This document shows, piece after piece, positions 5,030 through 19,533 of a stretch of DNA of 64,000 nucleotides. Both the position numbers and the translations under genes were made by a program. The stretch comes from an uncultured Alphaproteobacteria bacterium (GTDB lineage: Bacteria; Pseudomonadota; Alphaproteobacteria; HIMB59; GCA-002718135): positions 150,866 through 214,865 of the forward strand of contig CACILT010000001.1 of the NCBI GenBank assembly GCA_902587565.1, read 5' to 3'. Under the pieces are notes generated by a model. That model did no database searches, had not been told where the DNA came from, and worked only from the letters and a program-made list of their open reading frames with translations. Position 1 is the stretch's first letter, and each line of letters starts with the position of its first letter.

Positions 5030-5068
5030 GGCGTGCTTATAGAACTTTTCAAAAAAAAAGAAAGAAAT

Positions 5069-5936: not shown

Positions 5937-8042
5937 CTATTTTCCAATTTTTAAATTAGACTTAGCTCTAGATTTAAGTTTTGCTGAACCCCTCCCAGAC
6001 AAGCTTGGATTTTTGATAAAAAAATTGTGAGAGGAAAATTTTTTCTCTTTGCTTGATATTTCTTTTTTCTGATAATTGCCATTACTTAACATTTGCCAAG
6101 AATTTGTATTATCTGTCATACTGGCAATTAAGATCTGATTTAATATTTGTTCATGTACAGTTTCATTTTCAATAGGAATAAATGTTTCAACCCGCCTATC
6201 TAGATTTCTTTGCATTAAATCGGCAGAAGAAATAAACAAGATATTTTTTCTATGAGGGAATTTATGACCGTTATAAAAACAATATATTCTCGTATGTTCT
6301 AAAAAACGACCAATTATACTTTTAACAACTATATTTTCCGATAGATTTTCTTTACCAGGTATTAGAGAGCAAATTCCTCTTATTAACAATTCAATTTTTA
6401 CATTTTTTTGAGATGCTTTATAAAATTCATCAATAATTTGTTTATCAACAAGAGAATTACACTTACAAACTATTCCAGATGGTTTATTTTTTCCAGCATT
6501 TGTAATTTCATTTCTAATTAGTTCATTTAATTTGTTTCTTGCAGTTATTGGAGAATATACTATTTTTTTTATTGTGGTTGGTTCTGAATAACTAGTTAAA
6601 TAATTAAACATTTTTGCAGCATCATTTGTTAATGTTTTGTCACAGGTGAAGTAAGATAAATCCATATAAACTCTTGCATTTCTCGGGTGATAATTACCTG
6701 TTCCATAATGTGCGTAATTTACAACAGAATTCATTTGCTTCCTTGTTACAAGTGTAATTTTTGCATGAGTTTTCATATCAATATTGCCAAAAACAACTTG
6801 CGCTCCAGCTAATTCTAATTCTTTTGCCCATTTTAAGTTACGCTCTTCATCAAAACGTGCTTGCAACTCTATAATGACAGTTACTAATTTTCCTTTTTGT
6901 GCTGCTCTAACTAAACTTGCTTCTATTGGTGAGTCATCAGTAGTTCGATATAAAGTATGTTTTATTGATAAGACTTTTGGATCATCTGCAGCTTGATCAA
7001 TAAACTGAGTCACTACTTCAAAAGATTCAAAAGGGTGATGAATAACAATATCTTTATTTGCTATAGCTTTAAAATAATCATTTTTAAAATCTTTAATTCT
7101 TTCAGGAAACCGTACCTTAAATTTTGGAAAAAATAATTTTTTAAAATCTTTCAAGAAAATTGACTCTATACTCGAAAGATTAACGGGTATTGGCAGTTTA
7201 TATGTATTTACATCCTTATAGTTAAGTTTTTTATTTATGAATTTAATTAAGTGACTAGATATACTTTCATCAAAATCAATTCTTATTACCTCTTGTCTTC
7301 TTCTCTCAAAAATAGCTTTTTGAAATACTAAAAATAAATCTTCTCCTTCACCTCCTAATTCTAATTCACTATTCCTAATTGGTCTAAAAACACCTTTATC
7401 CAAAACCCTATCACACTGGAAAATTTCTTTTAAAGAAATAAGTAGGGCTGTCTCCATAGATACAAAACGTGTTTTTTTACCAGGTAATTTAATAAATTTT
7501 TCTAATCCCTCTGGCACTCTCAGTATTCCATAAAAAGTTTTTTTATTATTTATTAAACGACATACTAAGGTTGTTTCTTTATTTGGTATAAAAGGAAATG
7601 GGTGAGATGGATCAATAATAATTGGCGTTAAAACCCCCCAATTATTTTCTTCTAAATAATTTTTAATAAATGTTTTATCTTTTGTTTTCAGTGTTTTTTC
7701 TACATCTATATGGATTTTGTTTTCTGAAAGCTCTCTTAGTAAATCTATCCATATTGATTTTATATTTGAAATCATCTTCGATGTTTCTTTATCTATCAGC
7801 TTGAGTTGTTGTTGTGGTGTTAATCCATCAAAACTTTTATTTCGTGAAAATTTTTGAACATTCAATCCTGCTACTCTAACCATAAAAAATTCATCTAAAT
7901 TAGAGAATGCTATTGATAAAAATCTAACCCTTTCTAAAAGTGGAATTTTACTATCAGATGTCTGACTTAAGACTCTTTCATTGAATTTTAGCCAAGACAA
8001 TTCCCTGTTTGCATAGTTATAAGCAGTATTTTTTTTTAACAT
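5937..8042 (-). CDS. ppk1: Polyphosphate kinase 1
   Basis: PPK1 polymerises the gamma-phosphate of ATP into inorganic polyphosphate and can run backwards. The 701-residue length is normal. The N-terminal helical domain starts NRELSWLKFNERVL, the HPFPFIPN and YRTTDD segments are present, and the catalytic histidine sits in KTHAKITL (H426). The C-terminal phospholipase-D-like repeat includes SSADLMQRNLDRR, with a lysine- and serine-rich tail. The gene lies 60 bases downstream of sixA on the same strand, and the exopolyphosphatase gene is divergent from sixA, so polyphosphate making and breaking genes are grouped inside the phosphate cluster. Confidence 0.97.
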   Translation of the reverse strand: MLKKNTAYNYANRELSWLKFNERVLSQTSDSKIPLLERVRFLSIAFSNLDEFFMVRVAGLNVQKFSRNKSFDGLTPQQQLKLIDKETSKMISNIKSIWIDLLRELSENKIHIDVEKTLKTKDKTFIKNYLEENNWGVLTPIIIDPSHPFPFIPNKETTLVCRLINNKKTFYGILRVPEGLEKFIKLPGKKTRFVSMETALLISLKEIFQCDRVLDKGVFRPIRNSELELGGEGEDLFLVFQKAIFERRRQEVIRIDFDESISSHLIKFINKKLNYKDVNTYKLPIPVNLSSIESIFLKDFKKLFFPKFKVRFPERIKDFKNDYFKAIANKDIVIHHPFESFEVVTQFIDQAADDPKVLSIKHTLYRTTDDSPIEASLVRAAQKGKLVTVIIELQARFDEERNLKWAKELELAGAQVVFGNIDMKTHAKITLVTRKQMNSVVNYAHYGTGNYHPRNARVYMDLSYFTCDKTLTNDAAKMFNYLTSYSEPTTIKKIVYSPITARNKLNELIRNEITNAGKNKPSGIVCKCNSLVDKQIIDEFYKASQKNVKIELLIRGICSLIPGKENLSENIVVKSIIGRFLEHTRIYCFYNGHKFPHRKNILFISSADLMQRNLDRRVETFIPIENETVHEQILNQILIASMTDNTNSWQMLSNGNYQKKEISSKEKKFSSHNFFIKNPSLSGRGSAKLKSRAKSNLKIGK

Positions 8043-8102
8043 AATTTTTTTTTATATTTTTTAGGTATAAAAAAAACATGTTCATAAAAAATTCATATTT
8101 CT

Positions 8103-8561
8103 TTAATAATTTTTATTTTTTGGTTTTAAAATTTTATCAATAATCCAGTTTTTTTTAAAGGATATTATAGCAAAAGCACAGGTTGGAAAATGTTCAATAT
8201 TTGAATTACATAAAATATTAATTGAATCTATCAAACTAGGGTTGTGTCCAATGATAAGAGTATTTTTTTTTAATTTTTTAATTTTGCTTACAAGTATATT
8301 TGGTGGGCATTCATAAATATCGTTATCAATTGTAAATTTTACTGAGCGATCAAATGAATTAGAAATTATATCATATGTGCTAGTTGTTCTTTTAGAAGGA
8401 GAACATATTATCTGACCAATTTGAAATTTTCTTTTATCTAATATTTTAGAAAATTGTTTTGCGTTTCTCACACCTCTTTTATTCAGTGGCCTATCAATGT
8501 CATCAAGTTCTAAATTATCCCAACTAGATTTGGCGTGACGTAATAAATAGACTTGTAGCAT
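8103..8561 (-). CDS. sixA: SixA-like phosphohistidine phosphatase
   Basis: This 152-residue protein of the histidine phosphatase superfamily starts LQVYLLRHAKSSWDN, giving the RHA(K) catalytic motif of the SixA branch. DRPLNKRG follows at about 24-31, and the second catalytic histidine is in IIGHNPSL near residue 106. SixA removes phosphate from histidine in phosphotransfer proteins; other members act on small esters. The gene is first in a probable sixA-ppk1 operon and divergent from ppx, with 32 bases between. That neighbourhood suggests a role tied to phosphate or nitrogen phosphotransfer control, which is inference. Confidence 0.85.
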   Translation of the reverse strand: MLQVYLLRHAKSSWDNLELDDIDRPLNKRGVRNAKQFSKILDKRKFQIGQIICSPSKRTTSTYDIISNSFDRSVKFTIDNDIYECPPNILVSKIKKLKKNTLIIGHNPSLIDSINILCNSNIEHFPTCAFAIISFKKNWIIDKILKPKNKNY

Positions 8562-8593
8562 TCGAGTTTAATACTTTAGATGTATACATTTCC

Positions 8594-9499
8594 ATGGCTA
8601 AAAAGAAAAATAAAAATCCCATAACAGTGATTGATCTAGGCTCTAACACATTTAGACTAGTTATATATGCGCAAGCTATTCATCCTTTTCCAATACTTTA
8701 TCAAAAAAGAGAATTCTTAAAATTAGGTGAAAGTATTAAAATAGGTAAACTCCCATCGATAAAAATAAAAGAAGCTATAAAATGCTTAGAAGAATATATT
8801 AAGATTGCAAAAGATTATGAGTCCTTAGATATTCATATAATTGCAACGGCCGCAATTCGTGAAACAATAAATGGAAAAGAAATTATTGAACCTTTCAAGA
8901 AAAAAAAGTCAGTTAGAGTAGAAGTGCTCTCACCAAAAAATGAAGCTAAATGCGGATCTCTAGGTGTAATTAGTTCAATAAAAAATCCAATCGGTTTAGT
9001 TGCTGACTTGGGAGGTGGAAGTTTAGAACTTAGTACTATAAAAAATGAAAACATACTTGAAACTAAAAGTTTAAAAATTGGCATCTTAAGAAGTGAATCT
9101 GAGATGTACAAAACTACTAAAATTAAATTTGGTAATTTTTTATTTTCTAAATTTAAAAACCAATCTCTTAAATTTTCTAAAAACGTAGGAAATATTTATG
9201 TTATTGGAGGCATGTGGCGCAACCTTGCAAAACTTCATTTGCACCTAAATGGAATCAAGAAAAATAAATTACATGGGTACATGATACCATTTTCAGAGTT
9301 AGAAATATTTTATCACAAATTATACTCTATGGAAAAAAAACAAATTCAAAAATTGAATGTTGTCCAACCCAATCGATTAGATAAATTAAAATTATCTACA
9401 TATATTTTATTTAGCCTTGCTTCATTTTATAACATTAAAAATATTATTTTTGTAAGATATGGAATCCGTGAAGGCTACTTGTACGATATGTTGAACTAA
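8594..9499 (+). CDS. ppx: Exopolyphosphatase/GppA family, single-domain form
   Basis: The protein belongs to the ASKHA-fold Ppx/GppA family, which removes terminal phosphate from polyphosphate or hydrolyses pppGpp. The phosphate-1 loop VIDLGSNTFRLVIY is at about 12-25 and the phosphate-2 loop ADLGGGSLEL near residue 137. At 301 residues it ends after the two ASKHA halves and lacks the C-terminal HD-like domain of E. coli Ppx (about 510 residues). It is divergent from sixA-ppk1 and converges on the aquaporin gene, overlapping its stop by four bases. Polyphosphate hydrolysis is favoured by context over a pppGpp role. Confidence 0.9.
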   Translation: MAKKKNKNPITVIDLGSNTFRLVIYAQAIHPFPILYQKREFLKLGESIKIGKLPSIKIKEAIKCLEEYIKIAKDYESLDIHIIATAAIRETINGKEIIEPFKKKKSVRVEVLSPKNEAKCGSLGVISSIKNPIGLVADLGGGSLELSTIKNENILETKSLKIGILRSESEMYKTTKIKFGNFLFSKFKNQSLKFSKNVGNIYVIGGMWRNLAKLHLHLNGIKKNKLHGYMIPFSELEIFYHKLYSMEKKQIQKLNVVQPNRLDKLKLSTYILFSLASFYNIKNIIFVRYGIREGYLYDMLN

Positions 9500-10152
9500 T
9501 TTTTAAAAAACAATCTAACAATAAATGTAGCAATAAGAGCACCAATAATCTGAGCTAAAATAAAACCTAGAACACTTGATGGACTTATTCCACTAAAACT
9601 ATCTGTAAACATTCTTCCTATGGTTACTGCTGGATTTGCAAAACTTGTTGATGAAGTAAACCAATATCCTGCGGTAATAAATAGAGCTACACCAATAGCA
9701 ATTCTTTCCTTGTTTACCTCTTTTAATATAAAAATAGTTAATAATAATCCAACAGTTGCAATTATTTCTGAAAAGAATTTAAATACACCAACTCTTTCAT
9801 TGAGTGACCATTCAATTATAGGATATTCAAAATACCAATTTGCAGTTAAACAACCAAATATACCAGCAATAATCTGAGTAAAAATAAAAATTATTCCGTA
9901 ATTAATAGGAATATTTTTTTGGATAATATCACTTAATACAACAGCAGGATTAAAGTACGCTCCTGAGATATTAATAAACATAGAAATAATTACATATAAA
10001 ATGGCACCTGTTGCGATAGTGTTTCCTAGTAATATTATACCAAGGTCATTTGACATTAACTCTCCCATAATTCCACTACCTACAACTGTTAGTACAAGAA
10101 AATATGTCCCAATAAATTCTGCTAGTATTTTTTGTCTTAAAGAAAATGTCAC
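9496..10152 (-). CDS. Aquaporin, AqpS-like (Val after the second NPA)
   Basis: This 218-residue major intrinsic protein has six hydrophobic helices and both pore motifs: NPA at 68-70 (AYFNPAVVL) and NPA at 173-175 (SFANPAVTIGR). Most aquaporins have arginine just after the second NPA; here it is V176, as I recall for AqpS of the Sinorhizobium meliloti arsenic operon (V177), which conducts arsenite and methylated arsenicals. The gene is 20 bases downstream of agt in a plcP-agt-aquaporin operon. Arsenite exit is plausible because an arsC gene lies about 4 kb away. Glycerol or water passage during lipid remodelling is the alternative. Confidence 0.9.
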   Translation of the reverse strand: MTFSLRQKILAEFIGTYFLVLTVVGSGIMGELMSNDLGIILLGNTIATGAILYVIISMFINISGAYFNPAVVLSDIIQKNIPINYGIIFIFTQIIAGIFGCLTANWYFEYPIIEWSLNERVGVFKFFSEIIATVGLLLTIFILKEVNKERIAIGVALFITAGYWFTSSTSFANPAVTIGRMFTDSFSGISPSSVLGFILAQIIGALIATFIVRLFFKN

Positions 10153-10172: not shown

Positions 10173-11174
10173 CTAAACTTTTACCATGAATTCTAAAAAT
10201 TCATTCACACATTTGTCCCAAGTTAATTTAAGAGTAAAATTTCTACAATCAACTCTTTTTACTTTAAGTGCCTTCTTAACTGATTGTAACAAGTCATTAT
10301 CTAAAGTGTTAATCTTTTCATCTGTTAATACATCTATGGGCCCGGTTACTGGATATGCAGCAATTGGTGTTCCACTAGCCAATGCTTCAAGTATTACATT
10401 TCCTAAAGTGTCTGTTTTAGAAGGAAAGACAAATACATCTGCGTTTGCATAATATTTCGCTAGTTCATCTCCAGTTTTTACACCGACAAAATTTATTTCA
10501 GGATATTTATTAATATATTTTTGTAATTCGGGACCATCACCCACAACAGTTTTATTATAATTTCCTTTAAGTTTTAAAAATTCTTCAATATTTTTTTCAA
10601 TTGCTACTCTACCAACATAAGTCAGTTGTCTATCTTTACTGTTTGTGTCTCTTTTATTTGGATTAAATAATTCTGTATCAACACCTCTATTCCAAACTAC
10701 TAAATTTTTAAAATTATATTTTTTTAACTCATTTAGCATTGAAACTGATGGAACAAGAACTCTTTCTGAATCACTATGTAGTCTTCTTAATATGGAGTAT
10801 GTAAATCTCTTTGGGATAAAAGCTCTTTGCTTAATGTAGTCAGGAAAACGGGTGTGAAAGGAAGAAGTGTATTGTAGTTTATTTTTAAGACAGTACTTAC
10901 GACCAGCAAAACCTACCGGACCTTCAGTCATTATATGAACAATATCTGGATTAAATTCTTTAAAAAATTTTTCAGTAATTTTTTTAGTATTGTAAGAAAT
11001 TTTTATTTCTTTGTACCAAGGATAACTAAAATTATTAAACATCTCAGGATGTAATATTTTAATTTCAAAACCTTTTTTTTCTAGAATAGGTATAACGCTT
11101 TGAAATGTCGTAACTACGCCATTTACCTGAGGAACCCACGCATCACTAATTAACGCGATTTTTTTAGGCTGCAT
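10173..11174 (-). CDS. agt: Glycolipid glycosyltransferase Agt (GT4 family)
   Basis: The 333-residue GT4 glycosyltransferase opens with the nucleotide-sugar fold KIALISDAWVPQVNGVVTT, and has SSFHTRFPDY near residue 104. The donor site has FPSKTDTLGNVILEALASG near 251-269. In marine bacteria Agt adds sugar to the diacylglycerol made by PlcP, so that glycolipids replace phospholipids under phosphate stress. The start overlaps the end of plcP by 11 bases, the usual plcP-agt pairing, which is what sets this apart from other GT4 enzymes. It has no clear membrane segment and should act at the inner face of the membrane. Confidence 0.88.
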   Translation of the reverse strand: MQPKKIALISDAWVPQVNGVVTTFQSVIPILEKKGFEIKILHPEMFNNFSYPWYKEIKISYNTKKITEKFFKEFNPDIVHIMTEGPVGFAGRKYCLKNKLQYTSSFHTRFPDYIKQRAFIPKRFTYSILRRLHSDSERVLVPSVSMLNELKKYNFKNLVVWNRGVDTELFNPNKRDTNSKDRQLTYVGRVAIEKNIEEFLKLKGNYNKTVVGDGPELQKYINKYPEINFVGVKTGDELAKYYANADVFVFPSKTDTLGNVILEALASGTPIAAYPVTGPIDVLTDEKINTLDNDLLQSVKKALKVKRVDCRNFTLKLTWDKCVNEFLEFMVKV

Positions 11175-11976
11175 CCTCTTTTATTTTTCGTCTTTCTTCA
11201 AAAGAAATTAATTTTAATTTTTCTCTTTCTTCGGGCCAATTAAGAATAGATAAATTTCCAATTTCATCTTCAACGAGTGCTGTGCAACTTTCAATCCAGT
11301 CACCATCATTACAATAGAGAACACCATTTAATTCTTTTATTTCAGGTCTATGTATATGCCCGCATACAACAACATCGGCTTTTTCTCTTCTTGCCCTATC
11401 AGATACAGCAAACTCAAAATTACTAATAAAGTTCGTTGCATGCTTTGTTTTCTTTTTTAAATATTGAGACAGTGACCAGTAAGATAAGCCCATCTTTCTT
11501 CGAATAAAATTAAATACATTATTTAACTTTAGTAAATATTCATAAAGTGCTGATCCCACTTTGGCTAACCATCTTGCATTAATGATCACAGCATCAAACT
11601 CATCTCCGTGTGTAATCAGTACTTTCCTTCCATCAGCTAATTGATGCGTATCTTCATTTTTGATTGAAATTTCTCCAAAGGAAAAATTTGTAAAATCTTT
11701 TAATACTTCATCATGATTTCCTGGGATAAGCACTACCTTAGTTCCATTTTTCGCTTTTTTTAAAACTTTTTGAACTACGTCGTTATGTTCTTGAGGCCAA
11801 TACATTTTCTTACGCATGCGCCATCCATCAACAATGTCGCCTACTAAAAATAAATATTCTGAATCTGTTTCTTCTAAGAATTCTAAAAGCATTTTGCTTT
11901 TACAACCACTGGTTCCTAGATGGGTATCCGAAATCCAAATTGTGCGGTAAAATTTTTTATTACTTTCAAATTTCAT
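11164..11976 (-). CDS. plcP: PlcP-type phospholipase C (metallophosphoesterase)
   Basis: The 270-residue calcineurin-like enzyme carries IWISDTHLG at 13-21, FLVGDIVDGWRM near 43-54, IPGNHDE near 84-90, THGDEFD near 118-124 and VVCGHIHRPE near 203-212, the full metal set of the LpxH-like branch. PlcP removes the phosphate head groups of phospholipids to give diacylglycerol during phosphate starvation. Pairing with agt, inside a phosphate gene cluster, favours PlcP over a lipid A enzyme. It is the first gene of the plcP-agt-aquaporin operon. A weak Pho-box-like site lies at 12044-12061, but I am not confident in it. Confidence 0.9.
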   Translation of the reverse strand: MKFESNKKFYRTIWISDTHLGTSGCKSKMLLEFLEETDSEYLFLVGDIVDGWRMRKKMYWPQEHNDVVQKVLKKAKNGTKVVLIPGNHDEVLKDFTNFSFGEISIKNEDTHQLADGRKVLITHGDEFDAVIINARWLAKVGSALYEYLLKLNNVFNFIRRKMGLSYWSLSQYLKKKTKHATNFISNFEFAVSDRARREKADVVVCGHIHRPEIKELNGVLYCNDGDWIESCTALVEDEIGNLSILNWPEEREKLKLISFEERRKIKEDAA

Positions 11977-12043
11977 TAATTAAAGATTTGTTCTTATACA
12001 TAAAAGTATCATTTTATAATACAATTTATTATTATATGTGTGT

Positions 12044-12061
12044 ATTGTATAAAAATAACAG
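12044..12061 (-). promoter_or_regulatory. Weak Pho-box-like candidate before plcP
   Basis: On the minus strand CTGTTAT, then TTTT, then ATACAAT gives two 7-base units 11 bases apart, the first close to the PhoB half-site. The second unit is poor. It stands 68-85 bases upstream of the plcP start and just before the SET-domain gene start. Treat as a candidate only. Confidence 0.25.
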
Positions 12062-12062
12062 T

Positions 12063-12563
12063 ATGACGCAGAAAATTTGGTTTAAAAAAAAATCACCCCT
12101 TCACGGTTCTGGATTATTTGCAAAAACTAATATTAAAAAAGGCCAGAAAGTAATCCAATATATTGGTGATAAAGTTACTAAAAGAGAGGGTGACAAAAGA
12201 GCAGATAAACAAATCCGTAAAGCAAAAAAAGATAAAAATAATGGCATGGTCTATGTTTTTGAACTAAACAAGCGATACGACATTGACGGTGATGTTGATT
12301 ATAATTTTGCAAAATTTATTAATCACTCATGTAATCCTAATTGTGAAGTAGACATCATAGATAATGAAATTTGGATTTCTTCCATTAAACGAATAAAAAA
12401 AGGTGCCGAACTTTTTTATAACTATGGTTATCCTTTTGATACAGATTTTATGGATCACATTTGTAAGTGTGGTTCTAGAAATTGTGTTGGTTATATTTTA
12501 AGTGATAATGATTGGCCTAAACTAAAAAAATATGAAAAAAAAACTAAGACTAAGTCTAAGTAA
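12063..12563 (+). CDS. SET-domain protein lysine methyltransferase
   Basis: The 166-residue protein is a complete SET domain with a post-SET tail. It shows SGLFAKTNIKKGQ near 15-27, FINHSCNPNCE near 84-94, the GAELFYNYGYPFD catalytic tyrosine segment near 114-126, and a post-SET zinc motif CKCGSRNC near 134-141. These residues bind S-adenosylmethionine and the target lysine. The start at 12063 is chosen because earlier in-frame ATGs (12036, 11940) add sequence unlike the family and the latter overlaps plcP. The last 32 bases overlap phoR in another frame, so both are likely translated from one mRNA. Its protein target is unknown. Bacterial SET proteins are often close to eukaryotic ones. Confidence 0.88.
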   Translation: MTQKIWFKKKSPLHGSGLFAKTNIKKGQKVIQYIGDKVTKREGDKRADKQIRKAKKDKNNGMVYVFELNKRYDIDGDVDYNFAKFINHSCNPNCEVDIIDNEIWISSIKRIKKGAELFYNYGYPFDTDFMDHICKCGSRNCVGYILSDNDWPKLKKYEKKTKTKSK

Positions 12564-13584
12564 GATACCTTCGATTATTATTGCAATTGATACAAATAAG
12601 GAAATAATTTTTTACAATAATGCAGCTAAACAAAAATTTTTATTTATCGATGAAGGAAGAGATCTCAATAATATTATTAGATCAACAGAGTTAAATACTT
12701 TTATTGATAAAGCCTTTAGGGAGAAAGAAGATTTTAAGTTTGAATTCACCCCATCTAATTTTAGTGATATGTATTTTATTGCTGACTTAATATTTGTTGA
12801 AAAAGATTATGAAGAATTATTAATATCACTAAATGATCAAAGTCTTCTTAAAAACTACGAACAAATGCGAACAGATTTTGTGGCTAATGTAAGCCATGAA
12901 TTGAGAACTCCTCTTTCCTCAATTCTAGGCTATGTTGAAACAATTAAAAATTCACTCAATGAAGATAAGACCAATGACAAAACGGTTGGTAAATTTTTAG
13001 ACACAATGGAAGATCAGGCTTGGCGTATGACTAGACTAGTCGAAGATTTATTATTACTAAGTAAATATGAGACTGAAGATAAACCTATAGAATTTCAAGA
13101 AGCGAATATAAGGCAATTAATTGAAGGCGTAGTAGATAATTTACAAAACAAGTTAATGGCCAAAAAAATTGAAGTTCAAATCAAGGATGATTTTGATAAG
13201 TCTACAATATCAGCAAACAAAGATGCTTTGATCCAAGTTTTTTTAAATCTAACTGATAATGCAATTAAATATAGCAGAGAAAATTCTACTATTGAAATTG
13301 AGCTTGAGAGTGTAATTGATGACAATACCACCTTTTGCCAAATAAGTTTTATAGATAAGGGAGAAGGCATATCGAAAGAGCATTTAACTAGACTTACTGA
13401 AAGATTTTATAGAGTAGATAAAAATAGATCTCGAAATCAAGGTGGTACGGGTTTGGGTTTATCTATTGTTAAACATATAACTAATAGGCATAATGGTAAA
13501 TTATCGATAAAAAGCAAGGTAGATAAGGGTTCAACATTTACTATTTCTTTACCAGTATTTCAGCAAACTGTAATAAATACTTAA
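12532..13584 (+). CDS. phoR: Phosphate-regulon sensor kinase PhoR, without membrane segment
   Basis: This 350-residue histidine kinase has a PAS-like segment at about 10-100, the H-box FVANVSHELRTPLSS with H122, an N-box near DNAIKYS, and G-boxes DKGEGIS and GGTGLGLSI. It has no N-terminal transmembrane helix, unlike E. coli or Caulobacter PhoR, so it should be cytosolic or held at the Pst-PhoU complex. It comes directly before pstSCAB-phoU-phoB, which fixes its identity. Its start lies inside the SET-domain gene. A Pho-box-like repeat for pstS overlaps its stop codon. Confidence 0.92.
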   Translation: MKKKLRLSLSKIPSIIIAIDTNKEIIFYNNAAKQKFLFIDEGRDLNNIIRSTELNTFIDKAFREKEDFKFEFTPSNFSDMYFIADLIFVEKDYEELLISLNDQSLLKNYEQMRTDFVANVSHELRTPLSSILGYVETIKNSLNEDKTNDKTVGKFLDTMEDQAWRMTRLVEDLLLLSKYETEDKPIEFQEANIRQLIEGVVDNLQNKLMAKKIEVQIKDDFDKSTISANKDALIQVFLNLTDNAIKYSRENSTIEIELESVIDDNTTFCQISFIDKGEGISKEHLTRLTERFYRVDKNRSRNQGGTGLGLSIVKHITNRHNGKLSIKSKVDKGSTFTISLPVFQQTVINT

Positions 13585-13585: not shown

Positions 13586-13627
13586 ATATATTCTGTAAGG
13601 ACAACCTTATTTTAAATGAGGCTTAAT

Positions 13628-14623
13628 ATGAAAAATGTAATCAAATTAATTGCTGTCCTTGCTTTATTTGGAACTACTTCAGTTTCAGCAAGAGACTATA
13701 TTTCAATTGTAGGATCTTCTACAGTTTATCCTTTCGCTACTTTAGTTGCTGAAAAAATGGCATCAGAAGGAATGAAAGCACCCGTAATTGAATCAACTGG
13801 TTCTGGTGGAGGACACAAATTATTTTGTGCAGGTGTTGGAGTTGAACATCCAGATATCACTAACTCTTCAAGAGCACAAAAAGATAAAGAATTCAAACTT
13901 TGCCAAGATGGCGGTGTAACTGATATCATCGAAGTTAGAGTTGGTAATGATGGTATAGCTTTTGCATACGCTGCAGATTATGAATGGAAATATACTAACG
14001 GTGCTACAATGAAAGGTGGCATTGATTTAACTAAAGAAGAAATCTGGCAGGCAATGGCTAGAGATAATGCAAATGCTCCAACAACTTGGTATGAAATAGA
14101 TAAAAGATTACCAAAAGTTGAAATTTCTATCATGGCACCTCCTCCAACTTCTGGAACAAGAGATGCATTTGACTCACTTGTAATGAAAAAGGGTTGTGTT
14201 AAAGATATGTTAGTTGCTGACGGTGATTGTCAAGCGTATCGTGAAGATGGCTATGTTATTGAAGGTGGTGAAAATGATGAACTGTATGTTGAGCATATAA
14301 CTAAAGAACAAGGTGCATTCGGTATCTTTGGTTATAGTTTTGTATCTAATAATTCTGATAAAGTTAAAGCGTCAATGATTAACGGTGTTGAAATCTCTAT
14401 GGAAGGTATCCAAGATTATTCATATCCAATAGCAAGACCTTTATTCTTCTACATTAAAAAAGCACACATTGGTGTTATTCCTGGTTTAATGGATTATGTT
14501 AATGAGTTTGTAAGTGAAGAAGCAACAGAAGGTTACTTACTAGATGCTGGACTTGTTCAACTAAGTCCTGAGGATAGAGCAACTGTTCTTGATGCTATTT
14601 CTAATCAAACAAATTATAAATAA
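13628..14623 (+). CDS. pstS: Periplasmic phosphate-binding protein PstS
   Basis: PstS binds phosphate in the periplasm and delivers it to PstCA. The start at 13628 gives a clean signal peptide (MKNVIKLIAVLALFGTTSVSA, cleavage near residue 21) and has GAGG (13618-13621) 6 bases before it. An ATG at 13616 adds four residues but has no ribosome site. The mature protein opens with the phosphate loop VGSSTVYPF and has STGSGGGH near 56-63 and APPPTSGTRDAF near residue 171. It is the high-expression first gene of pstSCAB-phoU-phoB, followed by a strong hairpin. Confidence 0.96.
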   Translation: MKNVIKLIAVLALFGTTSVSARDYISIVGSSTVYPFATLVAEKMASEGMKAPVIESTGSGGGHKLFCAGVGVEHPDITNSSRAQKDKEFKLCQDGGVTDIIEVRVGNDGIAFAYAADYEWKYTNGATMKGGIDLTKEEIWQAMARDNANAPTTWYEIDKRLPKVEISIMAPPPTSGTRDAFDSLVMKKGCVKDMLVADGDCQAYREDGYVIEGGENDELYVEHITKEQGAFGIFGYSFVSNNSDKVKASMINGVEISMEGIQDYSYPIARPLFFYIKKAHIGVIPGLMDYVNEFVSEEATEGYLLDAGLVQLSPEDRATVLDAISNQTNYK

Positions 14624-14686: not shown

Positions 14687-16060
14687 ATGTTTTTTTGGTC
14701 TTTAGTTTTAATTGCAGTCGGAATTTTCTCATCCTTTATATACGGAAGATCAAGAATTAAATTAAATTCTAAAAAACAAGGCACGAAAAGCAAATCTCTT
14801 CCCAATTATTACGCACAATACGTTTTAATGTGGTGTTTGTTTCCTGCACTAATTGTTTATTTTTCATGGGCTATTTTTCAAGAACAGATTATTCAAAACA
14901 TAGTTATTAGTAACTTTGAATTTATTGAGGGCGCAGTTTACAACGAAGGATTATTGTTAGCAGAGATTAGAAATGTTTCTAATAACCCTTCTTTTGCTGA
15001 TGGTAAATCTATAGAAATAATTAATGCTGCATCTCATTATTCTTCCTTAAGACAAATAAGTCAAATATCTTTTTATACCTCAATAATCATTATAATGTTA
15101 CTTGGAGCCTTATACGCTTCACAAAAATTAAAACCAGAATTTCATGCTCAACATACAATTGAAAAATATATTCAATATATACTTATATTTTGTTCATCTG
15201 TTGCTATTTTCACTACAATAGGAATAGTTTTTTCACTAATATTTGAAAGCCTTCGCTTTTTTGCAGAAGTATCAATATTTGAATTTTTATTTAGTACTGA
15301 GTGGTATCCTTTTATTCCAATTAGAGAAGGTCAAACAGCTGCAGAGGGATCCTTTGGTGCAGTACCAATATTTGCTGGAACATTTTTAGTAATGGTAGTA
15401 GCCATGTGTGTTGCGGTACCTCTTGGATTATTAACAGCAATTTATTTAGCAGAATACGCAAGTCAAAGAGTTAGAAAAATAGTTAAACCTCTTCTCGAAA
15501 TTTTGGCAGGAATACCAACAATAGTCTACGGTTTCTTTGCTTTTGTTAGTGTTGCACCTTTCGTTAAAGCATTTGGACAATCAATTGGAATTGATGCTTC
15601 ACCAACAAGCGCCCTTGCAGCCGGCATGGTAATGGGGGTTATGATTATTCCTTTTATTTCTTCTTTATCTGATGATGTAATAAACTCTGTCCCACAAAGT
15701 CTAAGGGAAGCATCTCTTGGTATTGGCGCTAATAAAGCAGAAACTATTAAAAAAGTAATTTTACCAGCAGCTTTACCTGGAATTGTTGGAGCATTTTTAT
15801 TAGCAATATCCAGAGCGATAGGGGAGACTATGATTGTTGTAGTTGCAGCAGGCACAGCCCCCAATCTTACGGGCAATCCTTTTGAAAATGTAACAACAGT
15901 TACAGTTCAAATTGTTGTGGCCTTAATAGGTGATCAAGAATTTGATAACCCAAGAACATTATCAGCATTTGCTTTAGGATTAGTTTTATTTGTTATTACA
16001 TTATTTCTTAACATTATAGCTCTACAAATAGTAAAGAGATACAGGGAGCGTTATGAATAA
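14687..16060 (+). CDS. pstC: Phosphate ABC transporter permease PstC
   Basis: The 457-residue membrane protein has a long N-terminal region with about three helices, then the permease core with six helices. The EAA-type loop (SLREASLGIGANKAETIKKV near 343-362) contacts the ATPase. It is longer than E. coli PstC (319 residues), as is usual in alphaproteobacteria. It forms the inner-membrane channel with PstA. Its end overlaps the start of pstA by 8 bases. Confidence 0.95.
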   Translation: MFFWSLVLIAVGIFSSFIYGRSRIKLNSKKQGTKSKSLPNYYAQYVLMWCLFPALIVYFSWAIFQEQIIQNIVISNFEFIEGAVYNEGLLLAEIRNVSNNPSFADGKSIEIINAASHYSSLRQISQISFYTSIIIIMLLGALYASQKLKPEFHAQHTIEKYIQYILIFCSSVAIFTTIGIVFSLIFESLRFFAEVSIFEFLFSTEWYPFIPIREGQTAAEGSFGAVPIFAGTFLVMVVAMCVAVPLGLLTAIYLAEYASQRVRKIVKPLLEILAGIPTIVYGFFAFVSVAPFVKAFGQSIGIDASPTSALAAGMVMGVMIIPFISSLSDDVINSVPQSLREASLGIGANKAETIKKVILPAALPGIVGAFLLAISRAIGETMIVVVAAGTAPNLTGNPFENVTTVTVQIVVALIGDQEFDNPRTLSAFALGLVLFVITLFLNIIALQIVKRYRERYE

Positions 16061-17333
16061 CTCTATTGCTAAAGAAAAAATTATTTCTTTGAGAAAAAAG
16101 AGAAGTTTAGAAGATATGCGATTTAAGTATTACGGCTTCACAGCTATGTGTTTATCTTTAGCAGTTTTAGTTTTTCTTTTGTATACAATATTTTCTAAAG
16201 GATACACTGCTTTTCAAAAAACAATTGTTCTCCTAGAAGTTGATTATAATCAAGAGGTTTTAAAACTAACACCTGACTCTTCAGATGAAGATATGGAAAA
16301 AGGAAAATTTTTTAGAGTTAAAAAACAGGCTATTGAAAATTTTTTCCCTGATCTCTCAAAATCAGATATTAAATTAGTAAAAAAATTATTTTCTATAAAT
16401 GTAGATAAGGAAATTAAAGACTACTTCTTAGATAATCCTGAAGTTATTAATACTAAGCAACAAATTTGGGTAACTGCCCATAGTGATGTGGATCAACTAT
16501 TAAAAGGTAATTCAAGAAGGGATGTGCCAGAAGATAGAAGAAAATTAAATGATATTCAATTAAGTTATGTTGATCAATTAGTTGAAGAAAATAGAGTTAA
16601 ACAAGTTTTTAATAATTTCTTTTTTACTAAAGCAGATTCAAGACATCCTGAAATTGCTGGTGTAGCTGGTTCATTTATGGGATCATTATTTACTCTTTTT
16701 ACTGTTTTTATTTTATCTTTTCCAATTGCTATAGGAGCGTCTGTTTATCTTGAGGAATTTGCTCCAAAAAATAGAATAACTGAATTAATAGAAGTAAATA
16801 TTTCAAATCTAGCAGCAGTCCCATCAATAGTTTTTGGACTACTTGGGTTGGGGGTATTGCTTAATGTTTTTGGTCTTCCAAGGAGTACACCGTTAGTTGG
16901 AGGGTCCGTATTAGCCTTAATGACGTTACCAACCATTATCATTGCCTGCCGAGCTTCATTGAAAGCTGTTCCTCCTTCAATTAAAGAAGGAGCACTTGCA
17001 GTTGGAGCAACAAAAACACAAGCGGTATTTCATCATGTCGTACCCCTTGCACTACCAGGGACTTTAACAGGGACTATTATTGGATTAGCACAAGCATTAG
17101 GAGAAACAGCACCACTAATAATGATTGGCATGATTGCATTTATTCCTAATATTCCAACTGGTTTAACAGAACCTTCAGCAGCACTACCTGTTCAAATATA
17201 TCTTTGGGTGGAAAGTGCAGAAAGAGGTTTTCAAGAAAAATCAGCTGCAGCCATAATGGTAATTTTAATATTTTTGTTTATGATGAATGCCATTGCAGTG
17301 TTCTTAAGAAATAGATTTGAAAGGAAGTGGTAA
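16053..17333 (+). CDS. pstA: Phosphate ABC transporter permease PstA
   Basis: The 426-residue permease has one helix near 28-48, a soluble periplasmic insert at about 50-200, and a C-terminal set of five helices. The EAA loop (IKEGALAVGATKTQAVFHHV near residue 310) is clear. The insert makes it longer than E. coli PstA (296 residues) but matches the alphaproteobacterial form. It pairs with PstC in the inner membrane. It overlaps pstC at the start and is followed by pstB after 3 bases. Confidence 0.95.
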   Translation: MNNSIAKEKIISLRKKRSLEDMRFKYYGFTAMCLSLAVLVFLLYTIFSKGYTAFQKTIVLLEVDYNQEVLKLTPDSSDEDMEKGKFFRVKKQAIENFFPDLSKSDIKLVKKLFSINVDKEIKDYFLDNPEVINTKQQIWVTAHSDVDQLLKGNSRRDVPEDRRKLNDIQLSYVDQLVEENRVKQVFNNFFFTKADSRHPEIAGVAGSFMGSLFTLFTVFILSFPIAIGASVYLEEFAPKNRITELIEVNISNLAAVPSIVFGLLGLGVLLNVFGLPRSTPLVGGSVLALMTLPTIIIACRASLKAVPPSIKEGALAVGATKTQAVFHHVVPLALPGTLTGTIIGLAQALGETAPLIMIGMIAFIPNIPTGLTEPSAALPVQIYLWVESAERGFQEKSAAAIMVILIFLFMMNAIAVFLRNRFERKW

Positions 17334-17336
17334 AAC

Positions 17337-18098
17337 ATGAGTAACTCTAAAATATTGGCAAATGGTGTAGATGTATATTATGGATCCAAACAAGCCCTTT
17401 TTGGAATCTCAATGGATATCAAGGAGAAAGAAGTTACGGCATTAATCGGTCCTTCAGGATGTGGTAAATCAACTTTCTTAAGATGTATAAACAGAATGAA
17501 TGATTTAATTGAAATATGTAAAGTATCGGGATCAATAAAAGTAGATAACGAAGAAATTATTAGTGAAAAAACCGATGTTGTAAGTCTAAGATCTAAAATT
17601 GGAATGGTATTTCAAAAACCAAATCCTTTTCCTAAATCTATTTTTGATAATGTTGCTTATGGCCCAACTATACATGGTTTAGTTGACTCAAAAAATGAAT
17701 TAGAAGAAATTGTACATTCATCATTAAAAAAGGCAGGTCTATTTGATGAAGTAAAAGATCGATTAAATGAACCTGGAACAAGTTTATCAGGCGGTCAACA
17801 ACAACGATTATGTATTGCAAGAGCAATTGCTGTTAATCCTGAAATAATCCTAATGGATGAACCTTGCTCTGCTTTAGATCCAATAGCAACTGCTATTATA
17901 GAAGAATTAATTGATGAGTTAAGACTAAACTATACAATTATTATAGTAACTCATTCTATGCAACAGGCAGCCAGGGTTTCGCAGAAAACATGTTTCTTCC
18001 ATTTAGGAGAATTAATAGAAACGGGTGAGACAAACAAAATTTTTACAAATCCTGATAATACAAAAACACAGGATTACATTACAGGGAGATTTGGATAA
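17337..18098 (+). CDS. pstB: Phosphate ABC transporter ATPase PstB
   Basis: PstB powers phosphate import through PstCA. The 253-residue protein has Walker [10 protein letters not shown] near 37-45, the PstB-specific [10 protein letters not shown], a Q-loop VFQKPNPFP, the signature LSGGQQQR and Walker [14 protein letters not shown]. The length is normal. The TAA/ATG region at its end overlaps the start of phoU by one base. Together with PstS, PstC and PstA it forms the high-affinity carrier, which also signals to PhoR. Confidence 0.97.
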
Positions 18099-18808
18099 TG
18101 AAACAAGAAGGACACATTGTAAAATCATATGATGAAGAAATTAGAGACATTAAAAATAATATTGTTGATATGGGCAGTTTAGTTGAAAATCAACTAAAAG
18201 ACTCACTTCAATGTTTAAAGGATAAAGATACAGAATTTGCCGAAAAAATTATAGAAAACGATAATGTAATTGATAAAGCATATAATACTCTTGATCAAAG
18301 CTTAGTTGAAATACTTGGCAAAAGACAACCGATGGCTGCAGACTTACGAACAATTTTTTCAGCAATTAAAATCAATAAAGATCTAGAAAGAATAGGAGAT
18401 CATGCAACAAATATTGCCAAAAGAGTAGCAGTAGCAGAAATAGTTTTGCCAGAAAAACCTTCGAGAGATATTATTAATATGGGTGCACAAGTAAATATAA
18501 TGATTAGTGAAGTAATAAAAGCTTTTTTAGAATTTTCAGATCAAGCCGCAAAAAAAGTTTGGTTAATGGATAGACAAATTGATGAAGAATATCTTGGAAT
18601 ATTAAGACAACTATTAACCTACATGATGGAAGAACCAAAAAGAATCACAGCATGTACAAGTCTTTTATATATGGTTAAAGACCTAGAGCGAATTGGTGAT
18701 TATGTACAAAATATAGCTGAAGATATTTATTATGCAGTTTCTGGTGAGCCCCTATTTGATGGTAATCCAGACCCAACCTGGGAAGCAATTCTTCCAAAGA
18801 AAAAATAA
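18098..18808 (+). CDS. phoU: Phosphate signalling regulator PhoU
   Basis: The 236-residue protein is two copies of the PhoU three-helix bundle. Each has the metal-binding acidic motif, KINKDLERIGDHATNIAKR near 87-105 and MVKDLERIGDYVQNIAEDI near residue 190. PhoU links the Pst transporter to PhoR and keeps the kinase off when phosphate is sufficient. It sits between pstB and phoB. In this genome it may matter more than usual, because PhoR has no membrane segment of its own. Confidence 0.96.
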   Translation: MKQEGHIVKSYDEEIRDIKNNIVDMGSLVENQLKDSLQCLKDKDTEFAEKIIENDNVIDKAYNTLDQSLVEILGKRQPMAADLRTIFSAIKINKDLERIGDHATNIAKRVAVAEIVLPEKPSRDIINMGAQVNIMISEVIKAFLEFSDQAAKKVWLMDRQIDEEYLGILRQLLTYMMEEPKRITACTSLLYMVKDLERIGDYVQNIAEDIYYAVSGEPLFDGNPDPTWEAILPKKK

Positions 18809-18809
18809 A

Positions 18810-18838
18810 TTGTAATAGAATTGTAACAAAAATTTAAT
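18810..18838 (+). promoter_or_regulatory. Pho-box-like direct repeats before phoB
   Basis: TTGTAAT (18810-18816), TTGTAAC (18821-18827) and ATTTAAT (18832-18838) recur every 11 bases, with spacers AGAA and AAAA. The first two make a good PhoB site. The third may be a further unit or the -10 element (TTTAAT). It starts 1 base after the phoU stop and ends 11 bases before the phoB start, so phoB can be self-regulated apart from the pst transcript. The core is identical over 19 bases to the site before the Pit operon. Confidence 0.72.
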
Positions 18839-18849
18839 AGTAGAGATCC

Positions 18850-19533
18850 ATGAAACTAAAAATGCTTATCGTCGAAGATGAAGAAGCATTACTAGATCTT
18901 CTTAAATTTAATTTTAATAAAGAAGGATATAAAATAGATACTGCAACGGACGGTGAAACTGCTTTAGAAAAAATATTATATAAACCACCTGACATAATTA
19001 TTCTTGATTGGATGTTACCTAAACTATCAGGAATTGAACTTTGTAGAAGAATTAGAAAAAATAAAGAACATAAGAATATTCCTATCATAATGTTAACAGC
19101 AAAAGGTGAAGAAGAAGATAAACTTCGCGGCTTAGAAACTGGAGCAGATGATTACATAACAAAACCTTTTTCGGTTAACGAATTAGTGGCAAGAGTAAAA
19201 GCTGTTCTTCGACGAATTAGACCAATGTTTGTAGATGAAGTTTTAACTTACAAAGGAATAGTAATTGACCTTGTATCTCACTCAGCATCACGAGATGGAG
19301 AAACTCTTCATCTTGGTCCAACAGAATTTAATTTATTAGCTTTCTTTATGGAAAATATTGGTCGTGTCTTTAGCCGTGAACAATTACTAAATCATGTTTG
19401 GAAAAATGATGCCTATGTAGAACCTCGAACAGTTGATGTTCATATAAGAAGACTGCGAAAGGCCATTAATAATGACGTAAAAGAAGATTTTATAAGAACC
19501 GTGAGATCAGCAGGATATTGTTTTGGCTCGTAA
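18850..19533 (+). CDS. phoB: Phosphate-regulon response regulator PhoB
   Basis: The 227-residue OmpR-family regulator has a receiver domain with acidic pair E9-D10, phosphorylated D53 (IILDWMLP), T/K switch residues in MLTAKG and TKPFS, and a C-terminal winged helix from about 130 (LGPTEFNLLAFF through VDVHIRRLRKA). It closes the phoR-pstSCAB-phoU-phoB cluster. Its own Pho-box-like site lies just upstream. It should bind the 11-base repeats noted before pstS, phoB and the Pit operon. Confidence 0.96.
   Translation: MKLKMLIVEDEEALLDLLKFNFNKEGYKIDTATDGETALEKILYKPPDIIILDWMLPKLSGIELCRRIRKNKEHKNIPIIMLTAKGEEEDKLRGLETGADDYITKPFSVNELVARVKAVLRRIRPMFVDEVLTYKGIVIDLVSHSASRDGETLHLGPTEFNLLAFFMENIGRVFSREQLLNHVWKNDAYVEPRTVDVHIRRLRKAINNDVKEDFIRTVRSAGYCFGS

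Follow-up and report, generated by a model that had tools for sequence, protein, structure and literature searches.

In the DNA analysed here (64,000 nucleotides, hereafter the window), which comes from a genome of the HIMB59/AEGEAN-169 group, the gene for a SET-domain protein runs into the start of a phoR-type histidine kinase gene. The first-pass annotation read this overlap as a sign of one transcript and coupled translation, and proposed SET-dependent methylation as a new layer in Pho control. The question is whether the arrangement reflects a functional SET-PhoR unit or the way in which the two genes came to lie side by side.

The SET protein and the phosphate island around it

The SET ORF aligned with PF00856 from end to end (profile positions 1-105 of 105, E 6e-23) and carried the GxG (HGSGLFA), NHxCxPN (INHSCNPNC) and ELxxxY (EL.YNYG, here ELFYNYG) motifs of class V SET enzymes as well as a post-SET cluster of the CxCx4C type (CKCGSRNC), which bears out the earlier description of a complete SET plus post-SET protein. 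The motifs were kept in 27 homologues, among which the catalytic and post-SET residues were invariant or nearly so and C134, C136 and C141 were strictly invariant. The AF2 model adopted a SET fold with the SET domain of MLL1 as the top Foldseek match (E 8e-12), and the best matches in sequence searches belonged to the KMT2 group (E 1e-28 to 1e-33). Confidence in the model was only moderate (pLDDT 75.6, pTM 0.66; low in the C-terminal part and below 60 in the post-SET region), which weighs somewhat against the reading developed below. The protein thus resembles the eukaryotic KMT2/MLL enzymes, its best sequence and fold matches, in combining SET with post-SET, but it stands alone and lacks the remaining MLL domains and partners.

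Judging from these features, the protein is most likely a catalytically intact class V methyltransferase of the protein-lysine type with a housekeeping role. Prokaryotic SET proteins are known to methylate the DNA-binding proteins of their own cells, as cpnSET does with Hc1 and Go1-SET with MC1-alpha (reviewed in PMC3980110). The window protein is likewise a small prokaryotic SET protein with histone-methylase motifs, but its organism is presumably free-living. The likeliest class of substrate would be a nucleoid or translation protein. HU is encoded once in the window's genome, and this single occurrence is no sign of its being a SET substrate. Some SET proteins act on non-proteins, and this counts against a lysine methyltransferase: BurB, a proven SET enzyme of 172 aa, converts free methionine to S-methylmethionine (PMC12542666), and the window protein, which is also bacterial, about 170 aa long and made up of SET alone, could be a small-molecule methyltransferase of that kind. 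However, the solved folds and the sequences closest to it are those of histone KMT2-type SETs, it retains the full NHSCxPN and post-SET motifs, and BurB was absent from the best structural matches listed and from the 50-60 best matches listed overall, the two being set apart here by match lists. We therefore regard a BurB-like activity as very improbable.

The kinase gene heads pstSCAB-phoU-phoB, and it was the combination of HisKA and HATPase_c with this pst/phoU/phoB linkage that marked its product as PhoR-like. The best NCBIfam models were of the PnpS/PhoR type, but the curated cut-offs were not reached (303.5 bits against 334.2 for TIGR02966; 306 against 400 for the other model), and the kinase is accordingly called phoR-type rather than a PhoR equivalog. 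Hydropathy gave no predicted membrane segment (max KD19 0.93). The same was observed for the phoR-type kinases of the window's family (f1; window, L091 and L102), overlapping SET or not, while one membrane segment was predicted in PhoR of genus g104 from a second family (L136).

Flexible phosphate islands (fGIp) of the order HIMB59 have been published as variable elements (Molina-Pardines et al. 2023, PMC10734472). According to the accessible portions of that article, the window and fGIp have in common pstSCAB-phoU, PhoR-PhoB, ppk, sixA, ppx, GlpF, a glycosyltransferase and an LpxH-like protein, and the gene order of the window agrees with fGIp version H, in which ppk, sixA, ppx and glpF are upstream and the core glycosyltransferase, LpxH and methyltransferase genes lie within the island. 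The metallophosphoesterase beside SET is named LpxH there; in our searches the LpxH models matched it below threshold. In the same portions, the SET domain is named in a figure legend and the methyltransferase is called core within version H, and no mention of the overlap, the tail switch described below, Pho-box-like sites or SET function was found. The features of the locus are listed in the table.

Table. Features of the SET-phoR region of the window and of SET loci in family f99
Feature	Position	Strand	Details
ppk, sixA, ppx/gppA, aquaporin/glpF (remaining phosphate island)	5937..10152	.	ORFs, Pfam
GT4 glycosyltransferase, Agt-like by context	10173..11174	-	PF13439/PF00534
Metallophosphoesterase, divergent from SET	11164..11976	-	PF00149/PF12850; PlcP-like by context
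plcP-SET intergenic region	11977..12062	.	Pho box absent in the window lineage
SET + post-SET protein	12063..12563	+	166 aa; PF00856, AF2 model, KMT2/MLL1 folds
SET/phoR overlap	12532..12563	+	32 nt; SET tail YEKKTKTKSK spelled by first phoR codons
phoR-type histidine kinase	12532..13584	+	350 aa; HisKA + HATPase_c; no transmembrane segment predicted
pstS, phosphate-binding protein	13616..14623	+	PF12849
pstC, pstA, pstB	14687..18098	+	ORFs and synteny
phoU and phoB	18098..19533	+	ORFs and synteny
Pho-box-like site TGTAATA-GAAT-TGTAACA upstream of phoB	18811..18828	+	14/14, intergenic
Histone-deacetylase-domain gene + SET, f99	L138:4037-5489, L177:4072-5471, L185:4069-5462 and similar		

The probable junction at the A7 tract and the SET loci of relatives

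The 32-base overlap in different frames stood up to inspection: the SET stop lies at 12563 and the phoR ATG at 12532, the kinase start being fixed by an in-frame TAA at 12523-12525. It measured exactly 32 nt in 88/88 rows in which phoR adjoins SET (partly duplicates, as some genomes were retrieved twice; ~60 genomes by coordinates). Overlaps as such were common in the window, where 19 of the 44 adjacent same-strand ORF pairs overlapped, five of them by 23-41 nt (ORFs of >=100 aa with mechanical starts).

The C-terminus of SET switches with its neighbour, reading YEKK... in phoR-adjacent loci and ELKKKK... in the others. At the DNA level both classes were alike through the codons for WPKLKK up to an A7 tract (AAAAAAA), after which they diverged, continuing with TATGAAAAAAAA... 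if phoR follows and with GAACTCAAAAAG... or similar if phoR is absent. Therefore, the last ten SET residues are spelled by phoR's own first codons. A phosphate cassette probably joined at the A7 tract near the SET 3' end, where it took the place of the last ~10 codons and left the fixed 32-nt overlap. Thus, from its sequence context, the overlap looks like the scar of a swappable phosphate island joining an old core gene. Taken alone, it does not show that SET controls the phosphate response. More generally, gene overlap would be poor proof of functional coupling where an island left an identical overlap in every cassette-bearing relative examined. The suggestion of coupled translation is consequently not supported. 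A single transcript is compatible with the co-directional layout, and SET and phoR may share one in lineages that carry the cassette. The cassette may have been either gained or lost at the SET junction, an ambiguity that counts against this account.

The relatives compared were uncultured Alphaproteobacteria, mostly represented by single-cell style assemblies. SET was found, usually in one copy, in 95/110 genomes of the family and 137/162 of the order, and phoR of the window type (E <= 1e-60) in 87/162 genomes of the order. The dN/dS of SET between lineages was low (0.016-0.15); the corresponding phoR comparison was discarded because ungapped pairing fell out of register at indels. In the protein tree SET grouped by organism lineage, several deep branches being weakly supported. 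Among the contig-level loci L031-L101 (genus and family level), phoR overlapped SET in 52 and lay 1.07 kb apart in L091 alone, and in at least 16 SET occupied the same site without adjoining phoR. Where examined, these phoR-less loci had pit-DUF47 or plcP-agt to the left of SET and a PHO4-like gene followed by murJ-trpS to the right; in L109, murJ came directly after SET. Moreover, L042 encoded a SET protein 98% identical to that of the window next to a phoR product just 69% identical, which implies that most of SET takes no part in cassette exchange. In family f2, about 7 kb separated SET from phoR, the two being convergent, and in several loci a divergent plcP-agt-like pair stayed beside SET.

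We consider it probable (roughly 0.7) that SET is a vertically inherited core lysine methyltransferase gene between two variable genome slots, and that the overlap arose from the cassette junction. The right slot carries the phoR-pstSCAB-phoUB cassette in many lineages; elsewhere it is empty or contains a PHO4-like transporter or other genes. The enzyme would methylate lysines of a single endogenous protein or of a small number of them. The SET-phoR layout can be explained without invoking a part for SET in Pho control.

Several loci had contents of their own. In L081 and L084, a short phoB match, possibly a remnant, lay downstream of SET without phoR. A 319-aa protein with sub-threshold similarity to PHO4 phosphate transporters filled the phoR-pst slot in island-free relatives (L079:6495-7454 and homologues), and in L110:5534-8594 and L111:2006-3976 this slot was taken by genes for a metal ABC transporter and a Fur-family regulator. 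The overlap of SET and metallophosphoesterase in odd orientation at a contig start (L097:1-990) is probably a single-cell assembly chimera.

Pho-box-like sites and a possible phosphate role for SET

A scan with the classical CTGTCAT Pho-box gave no match of 11/14 or better. A clade-specific motif, TGTWAMA-N4-TGTWAMA, was picked after repeats had been seen near phosphate genes and is partly post hoc. Besides the site upstream of phoB, the window contained a second 14/14 site at 5068, upstream of DUF47-pit. Such a score was reached by 0/3000 shuffled upstream regions, whereas window sites of >=12/14 were not enriched (12 versus 10.5 in shuffles), so only the 14/14 sites are informative. The SET promoter of the window lineage had no Pho box (best score 11/14, at chance level) and gave no indication of Pho-regulon membership. 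Upstream of SET, 14/14 sites occurred only in L102, L103 and L108, in the plcP/glpF-SET gap; as the motif was picked after inspection, they are suggestive only. A triple Pho-box-like repeat was observed ahead of phoR in L091:7528-7556.

These three sites count against the preferred reading of an independent core gene, as does the recurrence of phosphate genes next to SET in f1, f2 and g104, which goes beyond what one would expect of a neutral docking site. They could mean that PhoB induces SET together with the plcP-agt lipid-remodelling genes and that SET acts downstream in phosphate starvation, not on PhoR; the divergent plcP/agt-like pair that adjoins SET in both f1 and f2 fits this idea. 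However, most loci lack such a site, and SET is present where plcP-agt is absent (L104-L106, L109), making PhoB induction an unlikely, if arguable, explanation.

Direct involvement in phosphate control, in which SET is co-expressed with phoR and methylates PhoR, PhoB, PhoU or a nucleoid protein to tune the Pho response, could draw on the same upstream sites, on the conserved exact overlap and on the phosphate genes that adjoin SET in three lineages. Linkage was one check proposed for the earlier claim, and here the picture was mixed: phosphate genes recur beside SET, so it does not lie among unrelated genes in all relatives, but many relatives have no phoR adjoining it. SET is retained in those relatives, phoR alleles are swapped beside a nearly unchanged SET, the two genes are separated in f2, the window lineage has no Pho box before SET, and SET has other contexts in the second family. 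A SET role in Pho control is thus possible but not favoured, and the tuning mechanism in particular appears highly unlikely.

SET genes in a second family and beyond

In the class sample, a close SET relative was detected in 14/385 genomes: five from the order, counting the window's own, and nine from elsewhere, four of which belonged to one family, f99, which is probably SAR11. Within f99, the gene was found in 201/297 genomes and in 111 of the 127 high-quality ones. It mostly lies directly downstream of a histone-deacetylase-family gene (PF00850, E 2e-91) on the same strand, with a gap of 2-41 nt in 40/57 rows (about 31/44 distinct genomes). In genus g104 of this family, SET adjoins gcrA, and some genomes also have a phosphate island next to it. 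Histone-deacetylase-family genes occur in the HIMB59 order as well, but not near SET in the window's genome.

This little-studied methyltransferase is nearly universal in two streamlined families, one in HIMB59/AEGEAN-169 and the other the putative SAR11, and no paper discussing its role was found in the literature searched. It is conceivable, though we think it rather unlikely, that these streamlined marine Alphaproteobacteria keep a core SET lysine-modification system that marks endogenous proteins, is phosphate-controlled in some lineages and includes the usual placement of SET behind the histone-deacetylase-family gene in the second family.

In the phylum sample, 27/299 genomes gave a SET match, in keeping with how widely bacterial SET proteins are known to occur (PMC3980110); the neighbours of SET genes in other Proteobacteria were left out, since ORF calling is unreliable in GC-rich DNA. 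In f99, the histone-deacetylase-domain gene and SET were seen to follow dapD/dapE-like genes.
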